Assembly (NCBI RefSeq): GCF_004402695.1
Contig: NZ_SOFL01000005.1
Coordinates: 335 to 64,334, forward strand
Reading direction: 5' to 3'
Length of the DNA stretch: 64,000 nucleotides
Source: Cryobacterium adonitolivorans
GTDB lineage: Bacteria > Actinomycetota > Actinomycetes > Actinomycetales > Microbacteriaceae
Positions 54,522 through 63,900 of this stretch are shown here, piece by piece. The number at the start of each line of letters is the position of its first letter. Position 1 is the stretch's first letter. Both the position numbers and the translations under genes were made by a program. Below the pieces are notes generated by a model. The model saw only the letters and a list, made by a program, of their open reading frames with translations. It was not told the DNA's origin and did not search any database.

Positions 54522-56828
54522 TTAGCGCCGGGTGGGGAGCACGAAGCGCTGCCAGGCCCAGGCGGTCACGCTGAGGACAGCGAAGCCGACCGCCACGAAC
54601 CACAGCAGCATCGCCGTGCCGTTGCCCGTCCAGCGCGGGAGCATGGGCGAGAGCAGGGTGAACAGGGTCAGGAAGGCCGGCACCGTGAGGGCGGCCCAGA
54701 TCGGCGGTGACCAGGCGAGGATGCTGCGTCCGCTGGTGTTGCCGATCGGGATGAGCACGAGCACGGCAGAGCCGATCGACGCCAGCACGACGGTGTTCGC
54801 GACCTCCGCGGCCAGGGCGCTGAGGAACCCGTCGGCCACCGGCAGGGTGCCGACGACGAGCAAGGCGGCCAGTCCCAGGCCGAACAGGCTGCCGGCCCGG
54901 ATGGCGGCCAGCTGGCCGCGTTGGGCCGCGCCGGGCCCTGAGCCCACGACGACGCTGCCCAGCAGGCCGAAGAGCAGGGCCGGCTGCAACTCGAACAGCC
55001 TGGAGGCGAGCGCGGTGACGGCGACGAACGCGAGATAACGCGGCAGGATCGTCGTGGTCACGTCGACGTGCAGTGCCCTGGACCCCCACCACTGCGGCAC
55101 CAGGGTGGCCACGGCGTTCACCACCACGAGGGCGAGAGTCACGGCCAGCAGGAGCCTGAGGTACGCCGGTGTGGCGGATACGGGGCCGGACAGTAGCACC
55201 AACACGGCGGCAGCGGCGACGGTGCCCCCGTACACGACCCACCGGTTGACCAGCAGGGTCGGGGCGACGTCGAATTCCTCACCGGCGCGGTTGCGGCCGG
55301 CGAGCCGGTGGCCGCGAAAGACAGGTCGACCGTTTCGGGCCCTGGTGACGGTGCCGGCCAGCAGCCGGGCGGGAACGACGAGCAGCAGCAGGGCGCCCAG
55401 GGTGAGCATCGCCGCCTGCAGCCACGGGAACTGCTCCACCGTCCAGGGCGGGATCACCGCGGTGCTGAACTGGGTGGGGTCGTTCCAGCCGCCCGGCACG
55501 GTCAGCTCTGGCGGGGCGGCTCCGGCCTGTTCGTCGCCGTCCTCCGGGACGGCCGGAAGCGGGGTGGGTGAGGCGCTGCCCGGCGTCGCCGAAGGGGTCG
55601 GCTGTGCCGTCGCCGTGGGGGCAGGCACCACGGGCGGGGCGGCCGTCGGCGTCGGTGCCCCTGTCGGTGTCGCTATCGGCGTCGGAGCCACGGAACCGAA
55701 GGTCACCCGGACCGCGGGGCTGCCGGCGCTCACGTTGCCGGCGGCATCCTGCTGCACAGCGCGCAGGTTGTACGCGCCGTTCGCGACGCCCGACCCTGTG
55801 CACGACCAGGTGCCGCCGGACACGACGGCGCTGCAGACCGAGTAGGCACCGGCGAAGACCGTGACGGTGGCCCCGTTCTCGCCCTGCCCGTAGAACGGCC
55901 CCGCGGCGGTCGCCAGGGTGGCATCGGCGACGGGATTCACTACGACGGGAGCGGCCGGGGCGTCGACGTCGAAGGTCAGGCTGACCGGCTCGCTCGCCCT
56001 CGACGACTCCGGTGCGCTGAACGGGGTCTGCTGGGAGGCGGTGATCTGCTCTGCCCCGCTCAGCACGGCGCCCTGCATCTGGCAGGCCCACGCCCCGGAT
56101 GCGTCGACGGTGAATGAGCAGCTCGCTCCGGCGGCGAGGGTGGCGGTGACCATGGCGCCGGGGTAGCCGGTGCCGCGGACGATACCGTTCGAGGAGGCCT
56201 GGCCGGTCGAGCCGCCCGTTACCGTTGGGGGCTGGAGCACCCGCACGGTGTGGGCAGCCGCGAGGCTGGAATTCCCGGTCACCACGGCCTGCAAGCCGAC
56301 GGCGGGCCCGCTGGGCAACGCCACCCCCTGGCACTGCCAGGTAGACGAGCCGTCGATGGTGACGACGCAGAGCGGAGCGCCGCCGGTGGGGGAGAACAAC
56401 GTGATCTCCTGCCCGGGGTCGCGGGTGCCGGTGACGGTGGTGCTCCCGGCCACGAAGGCGTTGGCGCCCGGGCTGTCGATGGTGGGCGCGGCGGGAGCCG
56501 GCGCGGGCGATTCCGACGGTGCCGGCGCCTCCGACGGCGCCAGCGATTCAGATGGTGACGGGGAGGTGTCTGGGGTGCCGGTTTCGGTGGGCGCGGGTTC
56601 GGTCGGGGGAGCAGGTGCCGTCTCGGTGACGATCGCCGAGGCCATCGGGGCGGTGCCGGCCGCCGAAGCCGGCGTGGCCGCGCCGGCGAGCGGACCGATG
56701 ATCACGGCACCGAGGAGGGCGGCGAGGAGGATGCCCAACGGTGCTACGCGCATCCCCGTGGGTCGCCGAAGGCCCCGACCGGTTCGAGTATTCGATCCGT
56801 GTGCGCTGGAACGGTGTGACGTGAGCAA
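54522..56828 (-). CDS. Large Ig-repeat surface/membrane protein
   Basis: The 768-residue protein has a long basic n-region and signal peptide (to about residue 57), a Pro/Thr/Ser/Glu-rich linker, and three bacterial Ig-like repeats (about 125-395) each containing a Cys pair ('CVVTIDGSSTWQC', 'CSFTVDASGAWAC', 'CSAVVSGGTWSC'). A second Pro/Thr linker follows, and then a C-terminal domain of about eight transmembrane helices (485-760). TTG 56828 is chosen because AGGGAG lies 5 nt upstream; ATG 56753 has no good site. The Ig part may be an adhesive or sensory ectodomain. Function is unknown. Confidence 0.75.
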   Translation of the reverse strand: MLTSHRSSAHGSNTRTGRGLRRPTGMRVAPLGILLAALLGAVIIGPLAGAATPASAAGTAPMASAIVTETAPAPPTEPAPTETGTPDTSPSPSESLAPSEAPAPSESPAPAPAAPTIDSPGANAFVAGSTTVTGTRDPGQEITLFSPTGGAPLCVVTIDGSSTWQCQGVALPSGPAVGLQAVVTGNSSLAAAHTVRVLQPPTVTGGSTGQASSNGIVRGTGYPGAMVTATLAAGASCSFTVDASGAWACQMQGAVLSGAEQITASQQTPFSAPESSRASEPVSLTFDVDAPAAPVVVNPVADATLATAAGPFYGQGENGATVTVFAGAYSVCSAVVSGGTWSCTGSGVANGAYNLRAVQQDAAGNVSAGSPAVRVTFGSVAPTPIATPTGAPTPTAAPPVVPAPTATAQPTPSATPGSASPTPLPAVPEDGDEQAGAAPPELTVPGGWNDPTQFSTAVIPPWTVEQFPWLQAAMLTLGALLLLVVPARLLAGTVTRARNGRPVFRGHRLAGRNRAGEEFDVAPTLLVNRWVVYGGTVAAAAVLVLLSGPVSATPAYLRLLLAVTLALVVVNAVATLVPQWWGSRALHVDVTTTILPRYLAFVAVTALASRLFELQPALLFGLLGSVVVGSGPGAAQRGQLAAIRAGSLFGLGLAALLVVGTLPVADGFLSALAAEVANTVVLASIGSAVLVLIPIGNTSGRSILAWSPPIWAALTVPAFLTLFTLLSPMLPRWTGNGTAMLLWFVAVGFAVLSVTAWAWQRFVLPTRR

Positions 56829-56829
56829 T

Positions 56830-56844
56830 GGTCTCCCTCAGACC
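56830..56844 (-). promoter_or_regulatory. Hairpin enclosing the ribosome site of the Ig-repeat gene
   Basis: On the minus strand GGTCT-GAGGG-AGACC folds into a small hairpin whose loop carries the Shine-Dalgarno, just before the TTG start. A -35-like TTGACA and -10-like TGGAAT, 17 nt apart, lie upstream. The stem could modulate translation. Confidence 0.35.
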
Positions 56845-57025
56845 ATTCCATGGGCGATGGCCCGGAATGTCAATGTGGCGCGCCCGGCCGACCCGATCCC
56901 GACGGATTTGTCGTGTCCGCTTGATCGTCCGCGCCCCTGGCCAACGAGCGGTCCGATACGCCATACTGTGCACTGGGTCAACTGCCCCACTATTCGACGT
57001 TGATGACGCAGGACGAGGTGACCAG

Positions 57026-57646
57026 GTGACACGCATCCCCGCCGTGGACCGGCGCAGCGCCCTGGTGCGCGCCGCGTTACGGGTCGTCGCCGACCGGGGC
57101 GTGGCCCAGGCCACGACTCGAGCGATCGTCGCAGAGGCCGGGATGTCGCTGGCGAGCTTCCACTACGCCTTCCAGAGCCGCGATGAGCTGATGGTCGAAC
57201 TCATCAGGCATGTCGTGGACGAGGAAGCCACCGCCGTGCTGCCCGAGCCGCCCATCGGGGAAGCCCACGAGCAGCGCGGGCGCGAGTCGCTGCGTCAGAT
57301 CCTGCGCGACGGACTGCAGCGCTACGCCGATCACCTCAGCCGCGACCCCCTGAGAGAAAAGGCCATGCTCGAACTCACCCAGTACGCCCTCAGGTCCCCG
57401 GAGCTGCACCACCTGGCCGTGGCGCAATACGAGCGCTACCACGCCCTTGCGGCGGAGGCGCTGGACGACGCGGCCCGGCAGAGCGGCTCGGTCTGGCTGC
57501 GTCCCGTCGGCGAGGTGGCGCGTCTGCTGGTCTCCCTCACCGACGGCATCACCATCGCCTGGCTGGTGGACCGGAACGAGCGTGCCACGGCGAACCTGCT
57601 CGATTTCGCCGCGGACTCCGTGGCCGCGTTGGGCCGCCCAGCATGA
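57026..57646 (+). CDS. TetR-family transcriptional regulator
   Basis: The 206-residue protein has an N-terminal TetR helix-turn-helix ('LVRAALRVVADRGVAQATTRAIVAEAGMSLASFHYAFQSRDELM', in part) and a helical ligand domain. GTG 57026 fits the family start. Its stop overlaps the ATG of the PLP-enzyme gene (ATGA), so it is the first gene of a four-gene coupled operon and probably an autorepressor responding to the pathway's substrate. Confidence 0.9.
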   Translation: MTRIPAVDRRSALVRAALRVVADRGVAQATTRAIVAEAGMSLASFHYAFQSRDELMVELIRHVVDEEATAVLPEPPIGEAHEQRGRESLRQILRDGLQRYADHLSRDPLREKAMLELTQYALRSPELHHLAVAQYERYHALAAEALDDAARQSGSVWLRPVGEVARLLVSLTDGITIAWLVDRNERATANLLDFAADSVAALGRPA

Positions 57647-58890
57647 GCCTCGACCTCTCCCTGCTGCCGACCGGCGCCGCGGATGCCGCACCGTGGCTCA
57701 GTCCGCAGGAGTACTGGCCGGGCCTGACCGAGGCCACCAGGGGCCTGGACACCCCGGTGGGCGCGCTGCACCTGGGGGCGCTGCGGCACAACACCCACGA
57801 CATGCTCGGCCGCGCCCAGGGCACCACGATCCGGGTGGCCAGCAAGTCGCTGCGGGTGCGAGGCGTGCTCGACGCCGTGCTGGCGCTGCCCGGTTACCGC
57901 GGCGTGCTCGCCTTCACCCTGGCCGAGGCGCTGTGGCTCGCCCAGACCCACGACGACATCGTGGTCGGCTATCCCAGCGTCGACAGGGCGGCGATCGAGA
58001 CGCTGGCCCGTTCGGCCGACCTGGCCGCCCGGGTGACCCTGATGGTGGATTCGATCGACCACCTCGACGTCGTCGACGCCGTGATCGCGCCGTCGCAGCG
58101 TGCGCGCATCCGGGTCTGCCTCGAACTGGACGCGTCCTGGAACGCGCCGGTGCTCGGCCACCTGGGGGTGTGGCGCTCGCCCGTGCACACCCCGGAGGAC
58201 GCCAGGGCGCTGGCCGTGGCCATCGTCTCCCGGCCCGGCTTCGAGCTGGTCGGGCTGATGGCGTACGAGGCGCAGATCGCCGGTCTCGGCGACCGGCCGG
58301 AAGGCCACCCGCTGCAGGGCGGGCTGAACCGGTGGGTGCGCACCCGGTCGATCGTCGACATCACCGCCCGGCGCGCAGCGGCCGTGGCCGCCGTGCGGCA
58401 GATCGCCGACCTCGAATTCGTCAACGGCGGCGGCACCGGTTCGCTGGAGAGCACCCACGCCGACACCTCGGTGACCGACATCGCTGCCGGCAGCGGTTTC
58501 TTCGGCGGCCACCTCTTCGACAGCTACTCGGGCTTCCGGCCGGCCCCGGCCGCCGCGTTCGCCCTCTCGGTGGTGCGGAAGCCCACCGCCTCGACGGCGG
58601 CCATGCTCGGCGGCGGCTGGATCGCCTCCGGGCCGCCGGGGGCGGACCGCTCACCGCGCCTGGTCTGGCCGGAGGGGCTGCGCCTGGTGCCCCGCGAGAT
58701 GGCCGGGGAGGTGCAATCTCCGGTCACCGGGACCGCCGCCGCCGACCTGCGGGTGGGCGAGCGAGTCTGGCTGCGGCACACCAAGTCCGGCGAGCTCAGC
58801 GAACACCTCAACGAATTCGCGTTGGTCGAGAACGGTATCGTGGTCGATATGCTGCCGACCTACCGAGGCGAAGGCAAGGCCTTCCTGTGA
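57643..58890 (+). CDS. Alanine-racemase-fold PLP enzyme (D-threonine aldolase/D-serine deaminase-like)
   Basis: The 415-residue type III PLP enzyme has the PLP lysine in 'IRVASKSLRVRGVLDAVL', the barrel sequence 'LMAYEAQIAGLGD', 'FVNGGGTGSLE', and a C-terminal beta domain with 'PREMAGEVQSPVTG' and 'RHTKSGELSEHLNEFALVENG'. Family members act on D-amino acids (aldolase or dehydratase); the substrate is unknown. The stop overlaps the oxidase GTG, consistent with a shared pathway. Confidence 0.85.
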   Translation: MSLDLSLLPTGAADAAPWLSPQEYWPGLTEATRGLDTPVGALHLGALRHNTHDMLGRAQGTTIRVASKSLRVRGVLDAVLALPGYRGVLAFTLAEALWLAQTHDDIVVGYPSVDRAAIETLARSADLAARVTLMVDSIDHLDVVDAVIAPSQRARIRVCLELDASWNAPVLGHLGVWRSPVHTPEDARALAVAIVSRPGFELVGLMAYEAQIAGLGDRPEGHPLQGGLNRWVRTRSIVDITARRAAAVAAVRQIADLEFVNGGGTGSLESTHADTSVTDIAAGSGFFGGHLFDSYSGFRPAPAAAFALSVVRKPTASTAAMLGGGWIASGPPGADRSPRLVWPEGLRLVPREMAGEVQSPVTGTAAADLRVGERVWLRHTKSGELSEHLNEFALVENGIVVDMLPTYRGEGKAFL

Positions 58891-60197
58891 CGGCCAGCGG
58901 CGCGCGCTGGCACAACTGGGCGCGCAGCGAGTCCATCGTGCCGGCCAGGGTGGAGCGGCCGACCAGCGCGGACGCCGCGCAACGCGCCGTGCTCGCCGCC
59001 GTGAAGTCGGGCGTCAGGATCAAGGCCGTCGGTGCCGGACACAGCTTCTCGGGCATCGCGGTTACCCCGGGTGTGCAACTCGACCTGGCCTGGGGCGGGC
59101 TGATCGCGGTCGACGAGGCCGCCGCCCGGGTGACCCTCGCCGCCGGCACCCGCCTGCACCAACTGCCCGCGCTCCTGGCGCCTTACGGGCTCGCCCTGGA
59201 GAATATGGGCGACATCGACAGGCAGACCATCGCCGGCGCCACCTCCACGGGCACGCACGGCACCGGCGGCGGCTTCGCCGGCCTCTCCGCCCAGATCGTC
59301 GCCGTCACCCTGGTCATCGGCGACGGCTCGGTGCTGCGCGTCAGCGAGAGCGAGAATCCCGAGCTGCTTCCCGCGGTGCGACTGGGACTCGGTGCCCTGG
59401 GCATCCTCGTGGACCTCACCATCCAGTGCGTGCCGGCCTACCTGCTGCACGCTGTCGACGCGCCGGAGCCGATCGAGGCCGTCCTGGATGGCTACCTCGA
59501 GCGCAGCGCTTCGGCCGACCATTTCGAGTTCTACTGGTTCCCGCACACCGAGACCGCCCTCACCAAGACCAACACCCGGCTGCCGCCGCGCACCGGCCGG
59601 GTGCCGCTGCGGCGGCTGAACCGCTGGGTCGAGGACGAGCTGCTCGGCAACGGGGTCTACCGCGCCACCTGCGCGGCTGGCCTGGCCATACCGCCGCTGG
59701 TGCCCCGGATGAACCGCCTCGCCGAACGGCTCACCGGCAGCCGTGACTTCACCGACCATTCGCACAAGGTCTTCGTCACGAACCGGTCGGTGCGGTTCCA
59801 CGAGATGGAGTACGCGCTGCCGCGGGACGCGGTGCCTGAGGCGCTGCGCGAGGTGCGCGCCCTCATCCAGAAGCGCGGGTGGCGCATCTCCTTCCCCCTC
59901 GAGGTGCGCTCCGCCGCGGCCGACGACATCTGGCTCTCCACCGGCTACGGCCGGGACACCGGTTTCATCGCCGTGCACCGGTACTACCGGGAGAACCCGA
60001 GAAGCTACTTCGCCGATGTCGAGGCGATTATGCGCGCGCACGACGGACGCCCACACTGGGGGAAGATGCACAACCTGGACGCGGACGCGTTCCGCCAGGT
60101 CTACCCGCGCTTCGACGACTTCCTCGCCGCGCGGGACCGGCTCGACCCGGAGCGTCGTTTCACCAACCGTTACCTGGAAAGAGTCCTCGGCAGATGA
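58887..60197 (+). CDS. D-arabinono-1,4-lactone oxidase-like FAD enzyme
   Basis: The 436-residue VAO-type flavoprotein has the FAD domain 'AVGAGHSFSGIA' with the His that in relatives bonds FAD covalently, 'GDIDRQTIAGATSTGTHGTG' as second FAD segment, and the C-terminal ALO domain with 'HWGKMH' and 'DPERRFTNRYLERVL'. Relatives oxidise aldonolactones or alditols, making H2O2. GTG 58887 overlaps the upstream stop and the last codons overlap the GH1 ATG. Confidence 0.9.
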   Translation: MTASGARWHNWARSESIVPARVERPTSADAAQRAVLAAVKSGVRIKAVGAGHSFSGIAVTPGVQLDLAWGGLIAVDEAAARVTLAAGTRLHQLPALLAPYGLALENMGDIDRQTIAGATSTGTHGTGGGFAGLSAQIVAVTLVIGDGSVLRVSESENPELLPAVRLGLGALGILVDLTIQCVPAYLLHAVDAPEPIEAVLDGYLERSASADHFEFYWFPHTETALTKTNTRLPPRTGRVPLRRLNRWVEDELLGNGVYRATCAAGLAIPPLVPRMNRLAERLTGSRDFTDHSHKVFVTNRSVRFHEMEYALPRDAVPEALREVRALIQKRGWRISFPLEVRSAAADDIWLSTGYGRDTGFIAVHRYYRENPRSYFADVEAIMRAHDGRPHWGKMHNLDADAFRQVYPRFDDFLAARDRLDPERRFTNRYLERVLGR

Positions 60198-61648
60198 GCA
60201 GCAACACCCCGGCGTCCCGCGCCTGGCAGCACCGGGCCGCCGAACTGGGCGACCGGCTCCCCACCGGCTTCCAGATCGGAACGGCCACCTCGGCCTTCCA
60301 GATCGAGGGCGGCGCCCGCGACGGCGGCCGCGGCGAATCCAGCTGGGACGCCTTCACCCGCGAGCCCGGGCGCATCCTGGACGGCCAGAACGCGTCGGTC
60401 GCCGCCGACCACGTGGGCAAGCTGACAGAGGACGTCACCCTGCTGCGCGAACTGGGCGCAGACAGCTACCGATTCTCCTTCGCCTGGCCGCGACTGCAGC
60501 CCGACGGCCGGGGATCGCTCAATCGTTCCGGTCTGGCGTTCTACGATCGGCTGCTCGACCAGTTGCTCGGCAACTCCATCAGCCCGATGGCCACCCTCTC
60601 GCACTGGGACACGCCCGCGGCGCTTCGCGGCGGCTGGCTGAACCGGGACACCGCGATGAGGTTCGGCGACTACGCCCACCAGATGGGAGAGGTCTTCGGC
60701 GACCGCATCGACCGGTGGGTCACCATCGCCGATCCGGCGACGGTGATGTTCAACGGTTATATGATCGGCGTGCACGCCCCTGGCCAGGCTCTGCTGTTCG
60801 ACGCGCTGCCGGCCGGCCACCACCAGCTGCTCGCCCACGGCCTCGCCGTGCAGGGGCTGCGCGCCGCCGACGTGCGCGGCCGGATCGGCCTCGCCAACGT
60901 GCATTCGCCGGTGCAGCCCGCCACGGACCGGGAGGCCGACCGCGACGCCGCGGCCCTCTTCGACCTGCTGCACAACCGGCTCTTCGCCGACCCGGTGCTG
61001 CTCGGCCGCTACCCGGACCCCGTCGGGGTGTTCGAGAACGAGCTGCGGTACCTGCACGAGATCGAGCCGGACGACCTGCGCACCATCCACCAGCCGCTGG
61101 ACTTCTACGGCGTGGACTACTTCCAGCCCAGCCGGGTGGCGGCCGGGCCGGCCAAGCCGGTGCGCGTGCCCGACGACCGGCCCGACGAGGAACGCCCGAT
61201 GATCAGCCGGCTGCCGTTCCACCTCACCCCCTTCCGCGAGCATCCGGTCACCGGGTTCGGCTGGCCGAACGCACCCGAGTACCTGCCGGTGCTGCTCGCT
61301 GAGCTGCGGGACCGCTACGCCGCGGCCCTGCCCCCGGTCTACCTCACCGCGGGTGGCGCGAGCTATCCCGACCGAACGGATGCGCACGGCGCGGTGACTG
61401 ATCTGGCGCGCATCGACTACCTGGCCGAGCACTTGGTGGCGGCCGTGGACGCCGTCGCCCCCGGAGGGCCCGCCGAGGGCGTGAACCTCCTCGGCTACCT
61501 GGTCTGGTCGCTGCTGGACGGCTTCGAGTGGGCCGCCGGCTACACCCAACGCTTCGGCCTGGTCTACGTCGACTTCACCGACCCCACCCGCCCCCGCACC
61601 CCCAAGCTCTCCTATACCTGGCTCCAGCAGGTCCTCAGCTCCCGCTAA
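60194..61648 (+). CDS. GH1-fold beta-glucosidase homologue lacking both catalytic glutamates
   Basis: The 484-residue protein has a complete GH1 frame: 'GFQIGTATSAFQIEGGARDGGRGESSWDAF', 'SYRFSFAWPRLQPDG', 'ATLSHWDTP', 'DFYGVDYFQPSRV', 'WSLLDGFEWAAGYTQRFGLVYVDF' (quoted in blocks). The acid/base motif TLNEP is TIADP here (Asp180, codon 60731-60733, preceded by Ala), and the nucleophile motif TENG is TAGG (Ala386, codon 61349-61351). A retaining glycosidase mechanism is therefore not expected. The reading frame is intact, so it is probably a pseudoenzyme, sugar-binding protein or enzyme with new chemistry. It is the last gene of the TetR operon. Confidence 0.88.
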   Translation: MSSNTPASRAWQHRAAELGDRLPTGFQIGTATSAFQIEGGARDGGRGESSWDAFTREPGRILDGQNASVAADHVGKLTEDVTLLRELGADSYRFSFAWPRLQPDGRGSLNRSGLAFYDRLLDQLLGNSISPMATLSHWDTPAALRGGWLNRDTAMRFGDYAHQMGEVFGDRIDRWVTIADPATVMFNGYMIGVHAPGQALLFDALPAGHHQLLAHGLAVQGLRAADVRGRIGLANVHSPVQPATDREADRDAAALFDLLHNRLFADPVLLGRYPDPVGVFENELRYLHEIEPDDLRTIHQPLDFYGVDYFQPSRVAAGPAKPVRVPDDRPDEERPMISRLPFHLTPFREHPVTGFGWPNAPEYLPVLLAELRDRYAAALPPVYLTAGGASYPDRTDAHGAVTDLARIDYLAEHLVAAVDAVAPGGPAEGVNLLGYLVWSLLDGFEWAAGYTQRFGLVYVDFTDPTRPRTPKLSYTWLQQVLSSR

Positions 61649-61731: not shown

Positions 61732-62466
61732 CTAGGGGGTTCTGCGGCGCAGGGTGAGGGAAGCCAACACCACCGCGCCGGCTATCCAGGCCAGGATGAC
61801 GAGAAGCTCGCCGACCACGTAAGCGTCGTCGTGGCTTCCGGTGGCCACTGCGGTGAGGGCGTCGATGGCATGCGAGAGCGGCAGCGCGTCCCCGATCGCC
61901 TGCAGCACCGCCGGCAACTGGTCGCGGGGCAGGAAGATGCCGCCGAGCAGGATCTGCGGGAAAACCAGCAGCGGCATGAACTGCACGACCTGGAATTCAG
62001 TGCGGGCGAAGGCGCTCGCGAGCAGGCCGAGGGTGGTGCCGAGCACGGCGTCCGCGACCGCGACGGCCACCAGCAGCCAGATCGATCCGGCGATGCTCAG
62101 CCCGCAGACCGTGACGGCGAACAGCACCGCGATGCTGGACTGCAGCACCGCCAGCAGCCCGAATGCCAGCGTGTACCCGAGGATCAGGTCGCCGCGGCCC
62201 AGCGGCATCGACAGCAACCGCTCGAGGGTGCCGGTGCGGCGCTCCCGCAGGGTGGTGATGCTGGTGACCAGGAACATCACGATGAACGGGAACAGGGCGA
62301 TCATCGCCGGTCCCACGGTCTCGAACACCGCCGTGTCGGAGAAGATCCAGGCCACCAGACCGATCAGCAGGCTCGGCACGATCAACAGCAGCACGACGGT
62401 GCGCGGGTCGTGCCGGATCTGGGTGAGGACCCGGCCGGCGGTGGCGAGAGTGCGTGACACGTTCAT
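61732..62466 (-). CDS. ABC-2 type exporter permease
   Basis: The 244-residue permease has six helices, the ABC-2 pattern 'LRERRTGTLERLLSMPLGRGDLILGYTLAF' (in part) and 'LVFPQILLGGIFLPRDQLP...LPLSHAIDAL'. It is of the DrrB/YadH type that exports drugs or lipids. Its ATG overlaps the ATPase stop (ATGA). The pair forms a minimal exporter; the substrate is unknown. Confidence 0.9.
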   Translation of the reverse strand: MNVSRTLATAGRVLTQIRHDPRTVVLLLIVPSLLIGLVAWIFSDTAVFETVGPAMIALFPFIVMFLVTSITTLRERRTGTLERLLSMPLGRGDLILGYTLAFGLLAVLQSSIAVLFAVTVCGLSIAGSIWLLVAVAVADAVLGTTLGLLASAFARTEFQVVQFMPLLVFPQILLGGIFLPRDQLPAVLQAIGDALPLSHAIDALTAVATGSHDDAYVVGELLVILAWIAGAVVLASLTLRRRTP

Positions 62467-63185
62467 TCGCGCTCCTCGATGAGGGTGAGGAAGGCGGCCT
62501 CGATGTCCGTGGTGCCGGTGGCCGCGAGCAGCCCATCCGGGGTGTCGTCGGCGAGGACCTCACCTCCGCGCATGAGCAGCAGCCTGTCGCAGCGGGCCGC
62601 CTCGTCCATCACGTGGCTGGACACCAGGAGGCTTGTTCCCCCGGCCGCGAGGCGGTGGAACAGCGCCCACAGGTCACGTCGCAGCACCGGATCCAGGCCC
62701 ACGGTGGGTTCGTCGAGCACCAGCAGCTCCGGAGAGCCGAGCAGCGCCACGGCCAGCGACACCCGGCTGCGCTGCCCGCCGGAGAGCGACCCGGTCAGCT
62801 GCCCCGCATTGGGGCCGAGGTCCGTCGCCTCGAGAACCCGGCCAACGTCGGCACGGCCGGCGCCGAGCACGGCCCGGAAATAGTCCAGGTTCTGCCGCAC
62901 GGTCAGGTCGTCGTAGACGCTCGCCTCCTGGGTCACGTAGCCCACCCGCCGGCGCAGGGATGCGCTGCCGGCCGGCTGGCCGAACACCGACACCGATCCC
63001 GACTGCACGACCTGCACCCCGACGATGGCGCGCATCAGGGTGGTCTTGCCCGATCCGCTCGGGCCGATCAGGCCCACGACGAGCCCGGCGGGGATGGTGA
63101 GGGACAGCGCGTCCAACACCTTCCGGGAGCCGCGCCGCGCGTGCAGGTCGGACACCGAGACGGCCGGCTCGACAAAGTGTTCCAT
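62463..63185 (-). CDS. ABC exporter ATPase
   Basis: The 240-residue nucleotide-binding protein has Walker A 'GPSGSGKTT', Q-loop 'YVTQEASVYDDLTV', signature 'LSGGQRSR', Walker B 'LLVLDEPTVGLDP' and H-loop 'VSSHVMDEA'. It is DrrA-like and powers the overlapping permease. No regulator is adjacent; the divergent neighbour is lemA. Confidence 0.93.
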   Translation of the reverse strand: MEHFVEPAVSVSDLHARRGSRKVLDALSLTIPAGLVVGLIGPSGSGKTTLMRAIVGVQVVQSGSVSVFGQPAGSASLRRRVGYVTQEASVYDDLTVRQNLDYFRAVLGAGRADVGRVLEATDLGPNAGQLTGSLSGGQRSRVSLAVALLGSPELLVLDEPTVGLDPVLRRDLWALFHRLAAGGTSLLVSSHVMDEAARCDRLLLMRGGEVLADDTPDGLLAATGTTDIEAAFLTLIEERE

Positions 63186-63284
63186 GCCAGCATTATTCGC
63201 CGGTCAGCGGCCAAAGTCACGCCCTTCGTGAGGTGATTCCTTGGAGTGTTATGGGAAGCACATGGGAGCCCCAGCGTGCCTCGT

Positions 63285-63290
63285 TATGAT
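63285..63290 (+). promoter_or_regulatory. -10 element (TATGAT) of lemA
   Basis: TATGAT lies 43 bp upstream of the lemA ATG and is the best consensus -10 in the gap. With the AAGGAGA ribosome site this gene looks conventionally leadered, unlike several others here. Confidence 0.5.
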
Positions 63291-63333
63291 GGGGCTCTCA
63301 TCACCACAGGTTCAATCGCAAGGAGACGTCGCC

Positions 63334-63900
63334 ATGGAATGGCTCATCCCGGTCCTCATCGTTGTCGTGATTGTGGCGATCGCGGGTATCTATCTGTGGG
63401 CGACCTACAACTCGCTCATCACCCTCAAGGTGCGAGTGGATGAGGCGTGGAGCGACATCACCGTGCAGCTCAAGCGTCGTGCGGACCTCATCCCCAACCT
63501 CATCGAGACGGTCAAGGGCTATGCCGCCCACGAGAAGTCGGTCTTCGAGAACGTGACCAAGGCGCGCGCCGAGACCCTCTCCGCCCAGGGCCCGGTGGAT
63601 GCCGCCGCGGCCGAGAACCACATGCAGACCGCACTGAAGAGCATCTTCGCCGTCGCCGAGGCCTACCCTCAACTGCAGGCCAGCCAGAACTACCTGCAGT
63701 TGCAGGGTGAGCTGGTCGACACCGAAGACAAGATCCAGGCCTCGCGCCGGTTCTACAACGGTGGCGTACGCGAACTGAACACCAAGATCCAGGTCTTCCC
63801 GAACCACCTGTTCGCGAAGAACCTCGGCTTCAGCCAGCGCGAGTTCTTCGAGGTCAGCGACGCCGCGGCCATCGCCGAACCGCCCCGCGTGCAGTTCTAG
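63334..63900 (+). CDS. lemA: LemA-family membrane protein
   Basis: The 188-residue protein has an N-terminal transmembrane helix ('IPVLIVVVIVAIAGIYLWATY') and a helical bundle with the LemA core 'YNSLITLKVRVDEAWSDITVQLKRRADLIPNLIETVKGYAAHE' (in part), 'YPQLQASQNYLQLQGEL' and 'RRFYNGGVRELNTKI'. ATG 63334 follows AAGGAGA. LemA proteins occur next to HtpX-like proteases, as here, and are thought to work with them in membrane quality control. Confidence 0.93.
   Translation: MEWLIPVLIVVVIVAIAGIYLWATYNSLITLKVRVDEAWSDITVQLKRRADLIPNLIETVKGYAAHEKSVFENVTKARAETLSAQGPVDAAAAENHMQTALKSIFAVAEAYPQLQASQNYLQLQGELVDTEDKIQASRRFYNGGVRELNTKIQVFPNHLFAKNLGFSQREFFEVSDAAAIAEPPRVQF

Follow-up and report, generated by a model that had tools for sequence, protein, structure and literature searches.

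Pseudoglycosidases are already recognised as a class, as set out in a review (PMC7828330), where alpha- and beta-Klotho are described as catalytically inactive GH1-type domains with a binding role. For domain 1 of akuBGL from Aplysia kurodai (GH1D1; structure 8in1), hydrolytic activity was not seen by its authors, according to their report (PMC10619976). The GH1 pseudoglycosidases that we met, Klotho and akuBGL GH1D1, come from animals, and according to the abstract of PMC6549527 gene duplication is the origin usually considered for pseudoenzymes. No report of a stand-alone bacterial GH1 pseudoenzyme was found in our searches of an open-access library, several of which were narrow. Here we describe such a candidate, a GH1 gene in a 64,000-nucleotide stretch of the Cryobacterium adonitolivorans genome (contig NZ_SOFL01000005.1; hereafter the window). 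Its product appears, from comparison of orthologues, to be a pseudo-beta-glucosidase that evolved repeatedly in one locus and has been retained for another job that needs no catalysis, possibly the binding of a sugar, and we hold this reading with moderate confidence.

The window protein resembles akuBGL GH1D1 in having a GH1 barrel in which the acid/base Glu is replaced by Asp. The animal domain differs in that it keeps the nucleophile (Glu404), has lost the glycone-binding site and stands in tandem with an active domain. The Klothos are tandem animal growth-factor co-receptors, whereas the window protein is a bacterial protein encoded in an operon, with one domain in its 484 amino acids (aa) and no tandem arrangement of the Klotho or akuBGL type. 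The closest solved GH1 beta-glucosidase is Cba3 of Cellulomonas biazotea (8znv/8znw); compared with such enzymes, the window protein has both catalytic Glu and several residues of the catalytic shell replaced. The operon GH1 proteins of Cryobacterium arcticum, Glaciibacter and related genera share the locus and its neighbours and are about 54–84% identical, but they keep both Glu (hereafter Glu/Glu), and a major facilitator superfamily (MFS) transporter gene adjoins them in 27 of 29 loci. The gene and the sites that set it apart are the following.

60194..61648, + strand: putative GH1 pseudo-beta-glucosidase, 484 aa, without the catalytic Glu pair
60728..60730, + strand: codon GCC of Ala179, which replaces Asn of the NEP motif (alignment of genome loci and codon reading)
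60731..60733, + strand: codon GAT of Asp180, at the acid/base Glu position (homologue alignment and codon reading)
61115..61123, + strand: Asp308-Tyr309-Phe310, replacing the Asn-Tyr-Tyr pocket motif (alignment of orthologues)
61349..61351, + strand: codon GCG of Ala386, at the nucleophile Glu position (homologue alignment and codon reading)

Membership of the GH1 family is indicated by a PF00232 profile match over residues 20–483 (417 bits, cut-off 22.6). The score against TIGR03356, the equivalog model of GH1 beta-glucosidases, is 443.5 bits and falls below the curated cut-off of 478.5. The strand-4 motif reads T-I-A-D-P and lacks the acid/base Glu of T-x-N-E-P, and the strand-7 motif reads T-A-G-G and lacks the nucleophile Glu of T-E-x-G. 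Asp180 and Ala386 occupy the two Glu columns in an alignment of 120 listed homologues as well as in one of 96 genome loci, and together with the codons this bears out the claim of an earlier sequence-only reading that both catalytic Glu had been replaced. That reading described the second change as TENG to TAGG, which holds for the nucleophile (Glu to Ala); position 387 is Gly in 76% and Asn in 14% of the Glu/Glu orthologues, so that their motif is mostly T-E-G-G and just one residue is truly altered. Three further positions have changed, Asn179 to Ala, Asn308 to Asp and Tyr310 to Phe. The second Tyr of the Asn-Tyr-Tyr motif touches the nucleophile in GH1 enzymes. In 111 of the 114 sequences without the nucleophile, the flanking stretch of about four residues on either side of that site contains no Asp or Glu.

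The frame is uninterrupted and its start codon shares an ATGA overlap with the stop codon of the upstream oxidase gene, in agreement with the intact frame in a coupled operon read earlier. A (beta/alpha)8 barrel of GH1 type is predicted by the AlphaFold model, which was run on alignment A1, made of 116 of the 121 proteins (without P0045, P0054, P0071, P0078 and P0095); a single-sequence model reached a pLDDT of 33.5 and was discarded as unusable. No signal peptide was visible by eye. The same Asp/Ala pair occurs in four other genomes, whose proteins are 90–94% identical to the window protein, and in the metagenomic proteins P0002 and P0003 (90% identical), which rules out a sequencing error as its cause. 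Cryobacterium is a cold-living genus, and named loci nearly identical to that of the window are those of Cryobacterium sp. N22 (94%), C. zongtaii (93%) and C. lactosi (91%). The genome itself has three more full-length GH1 genes, in two of which N-E-P and T-E-N-G were read.

To describe the spread of catalytic states we compared the orthologues across the genus and beyond. A GH1 orthologue at least 60% identical is present in 55 of the 57 Cryobacterium genomes, the two others being G043 (a 41% identical paralogue only) and G055 (no match). These two and G007, whose interrupted frame leaves the nucleophile unreadable, are outside the genus counts; the contig-edge pieces of G001 and G015 were read at the nucleophile and excluded from the entropy and selection analyses. 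Among the 54 readable sites, five are Glu/Glu and 49 have the nucleophile replaced, by Ala (21), Leu (17), Ser (5), Val (3), Thr (2) or Gly (1). Some of the replaced rows also have a one-residue deletion, with the gap falling in column 386 or the next, depending on the alignment. These 49 genus proteins are, from the residues read, probably not working beta-glucosidases. The pair of substitutions seen in the window is not fixed in close homologues, as the sequence-only reading had proposed to check, since Asp/Ala was found in 14 of the 54 genomes only and others have Leu, Ser, Val, Thr, Gly or a one-residue deletion at the nucleophile. The C. arcticum orthologue, at the same locus and 83–84% identical to the window protein, keeps both Glu.

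In related genera, 33 closer loci out of 40 fetched comprise 28 Glu/Glu and five nucleophile-lost ones, and the seven farther loci, 47–51% identical, are all Glu/Glu and served as the outgroup. The partial family hit G179 was excluded. Nine order-level loci were read for motif and neighbours; the nucleophile pattern matched none of them and the residue there was not scored. Homologues of the same operon thus keep both Glu in 5 of 54 genus genomes and in 28 of the 33 closer loci of related genera, so that an observation which the earlier reading had named as refuting is partly true, although the mere recent loss that it would have drawn from this does not follow. With metagenomic proteins included, 189 orthologues comprise 75 Glu/Glu and 114 nucleophile-lost proteins, and none combines an intact nucleophile with a lost acid/base residue, so the nucleophile seems to have been lost first.

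The losses were counted on trees built without the catalytic columns. In the best tree, of 94 rows, the nucleophile state needs six changes, that is, six losses without regain; 22 forks are weak, and their most favourable resolution gives four to five losses (read by eye, not a computed bound). A FastTree of 229 rows gives 12 losses without regain, fork supports not being weighed. Two losses fall outside the genus (G207/G063/G256 and G139/G251), and others occurred in several clades inside it. The Glu/Glu C. arcticum is nested in the strongly supported 12-row clade of the window in the 94-row tree, so that the loss in that clade is a separate event.

The acid/base column behaves differently. 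In the 114 nucleophile-lost proteins it holds Glu (66), Asp (40), Ala (5), Ser (2) or Gln (1), and is thus still Glu or Asp in 106, while the nucleophile column changes freely. The 229-row tree has 15 residue changes in the acid/base column against 31 in the nucleophile column, and only four when the former is scored as carboxylate or not. Drift alone seems unlikely to lie behind a column so nearly always carboxylate; ligand binding, folding or residual chemistry may each account for it. This pattern also agrees with an altered chemistry, in which a GH1 without nucleophile would use the acid/base carboxylate, for example in transfer from an alpha-configured donor or in substrate-assisted cleavage. 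Engineered nucleophile mutants of retaining glycosidases do act as glycosynthases with glycosyl fluorides, according to PMC10591481. We nevertheless consider an altered chemistry improbable, given that the rest of the catalytic shell erodes too (Asn179, Asn308, Tyr310 and partly Arg93), that the window protein carries the shorter Asp, and that the Leu found at the nucleophile position in a clade of 17 genomes would fill the site. We also know of no natural glycosyl fluoride donor. The new reaction offered by the sequence-only reading finds little support.

Selection was judged from the ratio of nonsynonymous to synonymous substitution rates (dN/dS, or omega), estimated under GY+F3X4 with Nei-Gojobori as a second estimator. 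Five nucleophile-lost sets, from the window clade (A, 5 genomes) to set E (3 genomes), gave omega of 0.046 (A), 0.061 (15 genomes), 0.056 (7), 0.050 (5) and 0.043 (E), and a sixth of 6 genomes gave 0.047. The values for five sets of Glu/Glu orthologues are 0.038–0.067, and for three sets of Glu/Glu paralogues from the same species groups 0.029–0.050. The Nei-Gojobori estimates are higher without altering the main picture, and for the dead GH1 all are below 0.23, with medians of 0.125–0.163. The dead GH1 is strongly constrained, perhaps slightly less than the Glu/Glu paralogues. Lost catalytic residues (49 of 54 genus orthologues without nucleophile) are thus combined with purifying selection according to the omega estimates, as in a pseudoglycosidase, and the window gene very probably encodes a pseudoenzyme under selection.

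The same estimates bear on slow decay, that is, a useless gene which has yet to gain stops or frameshifts. Repeated loss of catalytic residues together with loss of operon neighbours would fit the abandonment of a pathway, and the GH1 frame is interrupted in one genome, G007. In that genome (83% complete) the genes of the pyridoxal phosphate (PLP)-type protein, the ATP-binding cassette (ABC) system and the LemA-like protein are likewise interrupted, suggesting that sequence quality is the cause. Omega in the five nucleophile-lost sets (0.043–0.061) lies within the range of the Glu/Glu orthologues, and all 35 fitted sequences of sets A to E have open frames. We regard decay as highly improbable; the earlier claim that the locus is not simply decaying stands and is well supported by frames that remain open, by dN/dS values well under 1 and by the losses in parallel.

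The neighbouring genes of the window are the following.

56828..57646, + strand: TetR-type regulator (domain profile)
57643..58890, + strand: PLP-type protein with an Ala_racemase_N domain, aldolase/racemase-like (domain profile)
58887..60197, + strand: sugar-lactone/alditol oxidase-like protein linked to flavin adenine dinucleotide (FAD) (TIGR01679, 407.7 bits, cut-off 292.25), overlapping the GH1 start
61732..62466, - strand: ABC-2 type permease, a neighbour only (domain profile)
62463..63185, - strand: ABC ATPase, a neighbour only (domain profile)
63241..63900, + strand: LemA-like open reading frame (ORF), a synteny anchor downstream of GH1 which adjoins it in most loci

The typical gene order in the family is TetR, MFS, PLP protein, FAD oxidase and GH1. 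Among the 33 closer loci from related genera, with flanks of about 5 kb in view, 26 have the MFS gene upstream, 28 the PLP protein and oxidase, 21 a detected TetR and 26 the LemA-like gene downstream. The GH1 gene has outlasted the carrier, the PLP protein and the oxidase in the genus: it survives in 55 of the 57 genomes, the oxidase in 39 (40 matches minus one just 31% identical), the PLP protein in 32 and the operon-type MFS in 8. The operon-type MFS is found in 3 of the 5 Glu/Glu and 5 of the 49 nucleophile-lost genomes of the genus. The clade of 17 genomes has no orthologue of the MFS, PLP protein or oxidase and has retained GH1, with Leu386 and the motif L-S-L-A-G-G-A-F in all 17. The window clade has lost the MFS and kept the rest, its sole MFS match, in G017, being 35% identical. 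Over a table of 82 rows, both the nucleophile and the MFS are lost in 46, neither in 27, the nucleophile alone in 7 and the MFS alone in 2, so the MFS is absent from 46 of 53 nucleophile-lost loci versus 2 of 29 Glu/Glu loci. The table leaves out the outgroup, G202, G252 and G296 (other arrangement), G207 and G054 (contig edges) and broken or fragmentary rows. Omega for the oxidase and PLP partners is 0.033–0.092, above that of GH1 in sets A, C and D and below it in E; in the window clade the Nei-Gojobori values are 0.205 for the oxidase and 0.192 for the PLP protein. As controls, the LemA-like gene gave omega of 0.008–0.016, below every GH1 set, and the ABC permease 0.037.

Six loci (L149, L153, L156 and L166 in the family, L216 and L217 in the order) have GH1 followed by an MFS gene 37–42% identical, with no PLP or oxidase gene nearby and a TetR detected beside three of them. 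This arrangement suggests an ancestral uptake-and-cleavage cluster for a beta-glucoside. The window protein would then be a syntenic orthologue of an operon GH1 beta-glucosidase, its predicted barrel intact and the machinery of a retaining glycosidase gone. In the ancestral cluster a beta-glucoside would have been imported by the MFS carrier and cleaved by GH1; hydrolysis may later have become dispensable, the protein being kept for a second and probably cytosolic job that needs no catalysis. As the first candidate for this job we propose that the protein, acting as a sensor or a partner, reversibly binds a sugar or glycoside in its glycone pocket, which is largely intact.

We examined the pocket under a division of its residues into glycone contacts and catalytic ones that we assume from GH1 enzymology. 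The 17-genome clade keeps Gln36, His137, Trp438, Glu445 and Trp446 in 17 of 17 genomes and Trp138 in 14 of 17, and none of the six has changed in the 5 genomes of the window clade. Asn179, Asn308 and Tyr310 erode in both clades, and Arg93 in the 17-genome clade only, where it is kept in 8 of 17. Sugar binding as the retained job is, on these residues, a tentative proposal. Trp11-type sites, invariant in the nucleophile-lost proteins and variable in the Glu/Glu ones, were considered as a sign of new constraint and rejected, because Trp11 is also present in four Glu/Glu orthologues of the genus and so marks the genus, not the loss of the nucleophile.

The kept residues could also serve folding, the barrel being maintained as a non-catalytic scaffold or chaperone for protein contacts, for example with an active GH1 paralogue. 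Paralogues with the Glu pair do exist in the same genome, conservation of the glycone contacts does not exceed that of the remaining core, and the inactive akuBGL GH1D1, with the same change of acid/base Glu to Asp, was proposed as a possible chaperone in PMC10619976. That domain, as described there, is fused to its partner and has lost the glycone-binding site, whereas the window protein stands alone and has kept it; moreover, 17 genomes keep GH1 without having the carrier, the PLP protein or the oxidase, so that none of these is the required partner there. We judge a scaffold unlikely, though deserving more weight than the other alternatives, and would rank the functions as sugar binding, then scaffolding, then altered chemistry, then decay.

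A non-catalytic job retained after repeated loss of catalysis could be old. In the genus 49 genomes lost catalysis and just two lack the gene, for which a second function already present in the ancestor is the simplest explanation; that it predates the loss of the nucleophile we take to be an even chance. Somewhat less probably, the operon GH1 was bifunctional before any loss and selection acts on its non-catalytic role, that of a switch which reads a sugar or binds a partner, in which case catalysis could be discarded many times in parallel and the gene kept.

Several results weigh against the main reading, a pseudo-beta-glucosidase of a former uptake operon kept for a second job. The glycone contacts (residues 36, 137, 138, 445 and 446) have mean retentions of 0.965 and 0.974, where another 100 conserved sites reach 0.949 and 0.947. 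They are no better kept than random conserved sites (P 0.76 and 0.58) and may thus be retained for structural reasons; an entropy ranking likewise does not distinguish them. Different clades carry different residues in place of the nucleophile, an argument against a new function there. Loss of the MFS and loss of the nucleophile go together strongly as a raw count, but with four supported independent pairs the association is not significant; seven nucleophile-lost loci keep the MFS, and the Glu/Glu genome G054, outside the table for its contig edge, is likewise without an MFS orthologue. A sugar role of the carrier is itself weakly supported: Pfam MFS_1 is best (107.6 bits), the sugar-transport family MFS_2 reaches 51.7 bits (cut-off 27), and the NCBIfam matches are all below cut-off, with a multidrug superfamily first and GPH symporters second. 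In set E, omega of the dead GH1 is 0.043 against 0.033–0.036 for its partners, and the Nei-Gojobori medians of the dead GH1 exceed those of the Glu/Glu paralogues (0.089–0.097), which indicates less constraint. Survivorship may also contribute, as lineages that lost catalysis and then the gene are invisible (of 249 family genomes, 203 give no match at E 1e-125), although in the genus the gene is missing from just 2 of 57.

Unlike the gene-duplication products usually discussed, one syntenic bacterial gene here lost the same catalytic residue repeatedly and in place. With Glu/Glu orthologues as close as 83–84% identity, one can test directly in which order residues were lost, what became of the pathway and which function was retained. 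If the ancestor was bifunctional, the locus would be a natural replicate experiment on the passage from enzyme to pseudoenzyme, with a fixed order in which the nucleophile goes first and the acid/base residue later, mostly only to Asp. The result also concerns annotation, as many such proteins carry the name beta-glucosidase or glycosyl hydrolase in their source records.

For the other neighbours, the TetR gene probably starts farther downstream than 56828, since its TetR_N domain does not begin until residue 79. A phmmer search matched the oxidase to structure 2vfr, labelled xylitol oxidase in its entry, and found no solved relative of the PLP protein at E 1e-3. The ORF at 63241..63900 is putatively LemA-like. 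The ABC exporter pair at 61732–63185, which separates GH1 from the LemA-like gene and runs opposite to them, was not found at the locus in close relatives such as G056, G016 and G009. Among other GH1 copies, the open frame of locus L063 (G051) contains, after residue 323, about 65 extra residues of low complexity that are rich in glycine, and the contigs of its sister genomes G001 and G015 end near this site. Locus L162 (G092) has tandem GH1 genes in the same operon, whose products share about 49 and 52% identity with the window protein. In another family, G305, G323, G447 and G475 have two relatives of the window GH1 each, one of the G323 copies with a TGA stop. At 54522–56828 (- strand) the window encodes a 768-aa protein with a Ser/Pro/Ala-rich N-terminal part and an apparently membrane-bound C-terminal part, and ORFs resembling it were seen by eye upstream of GH1 in six relatives.

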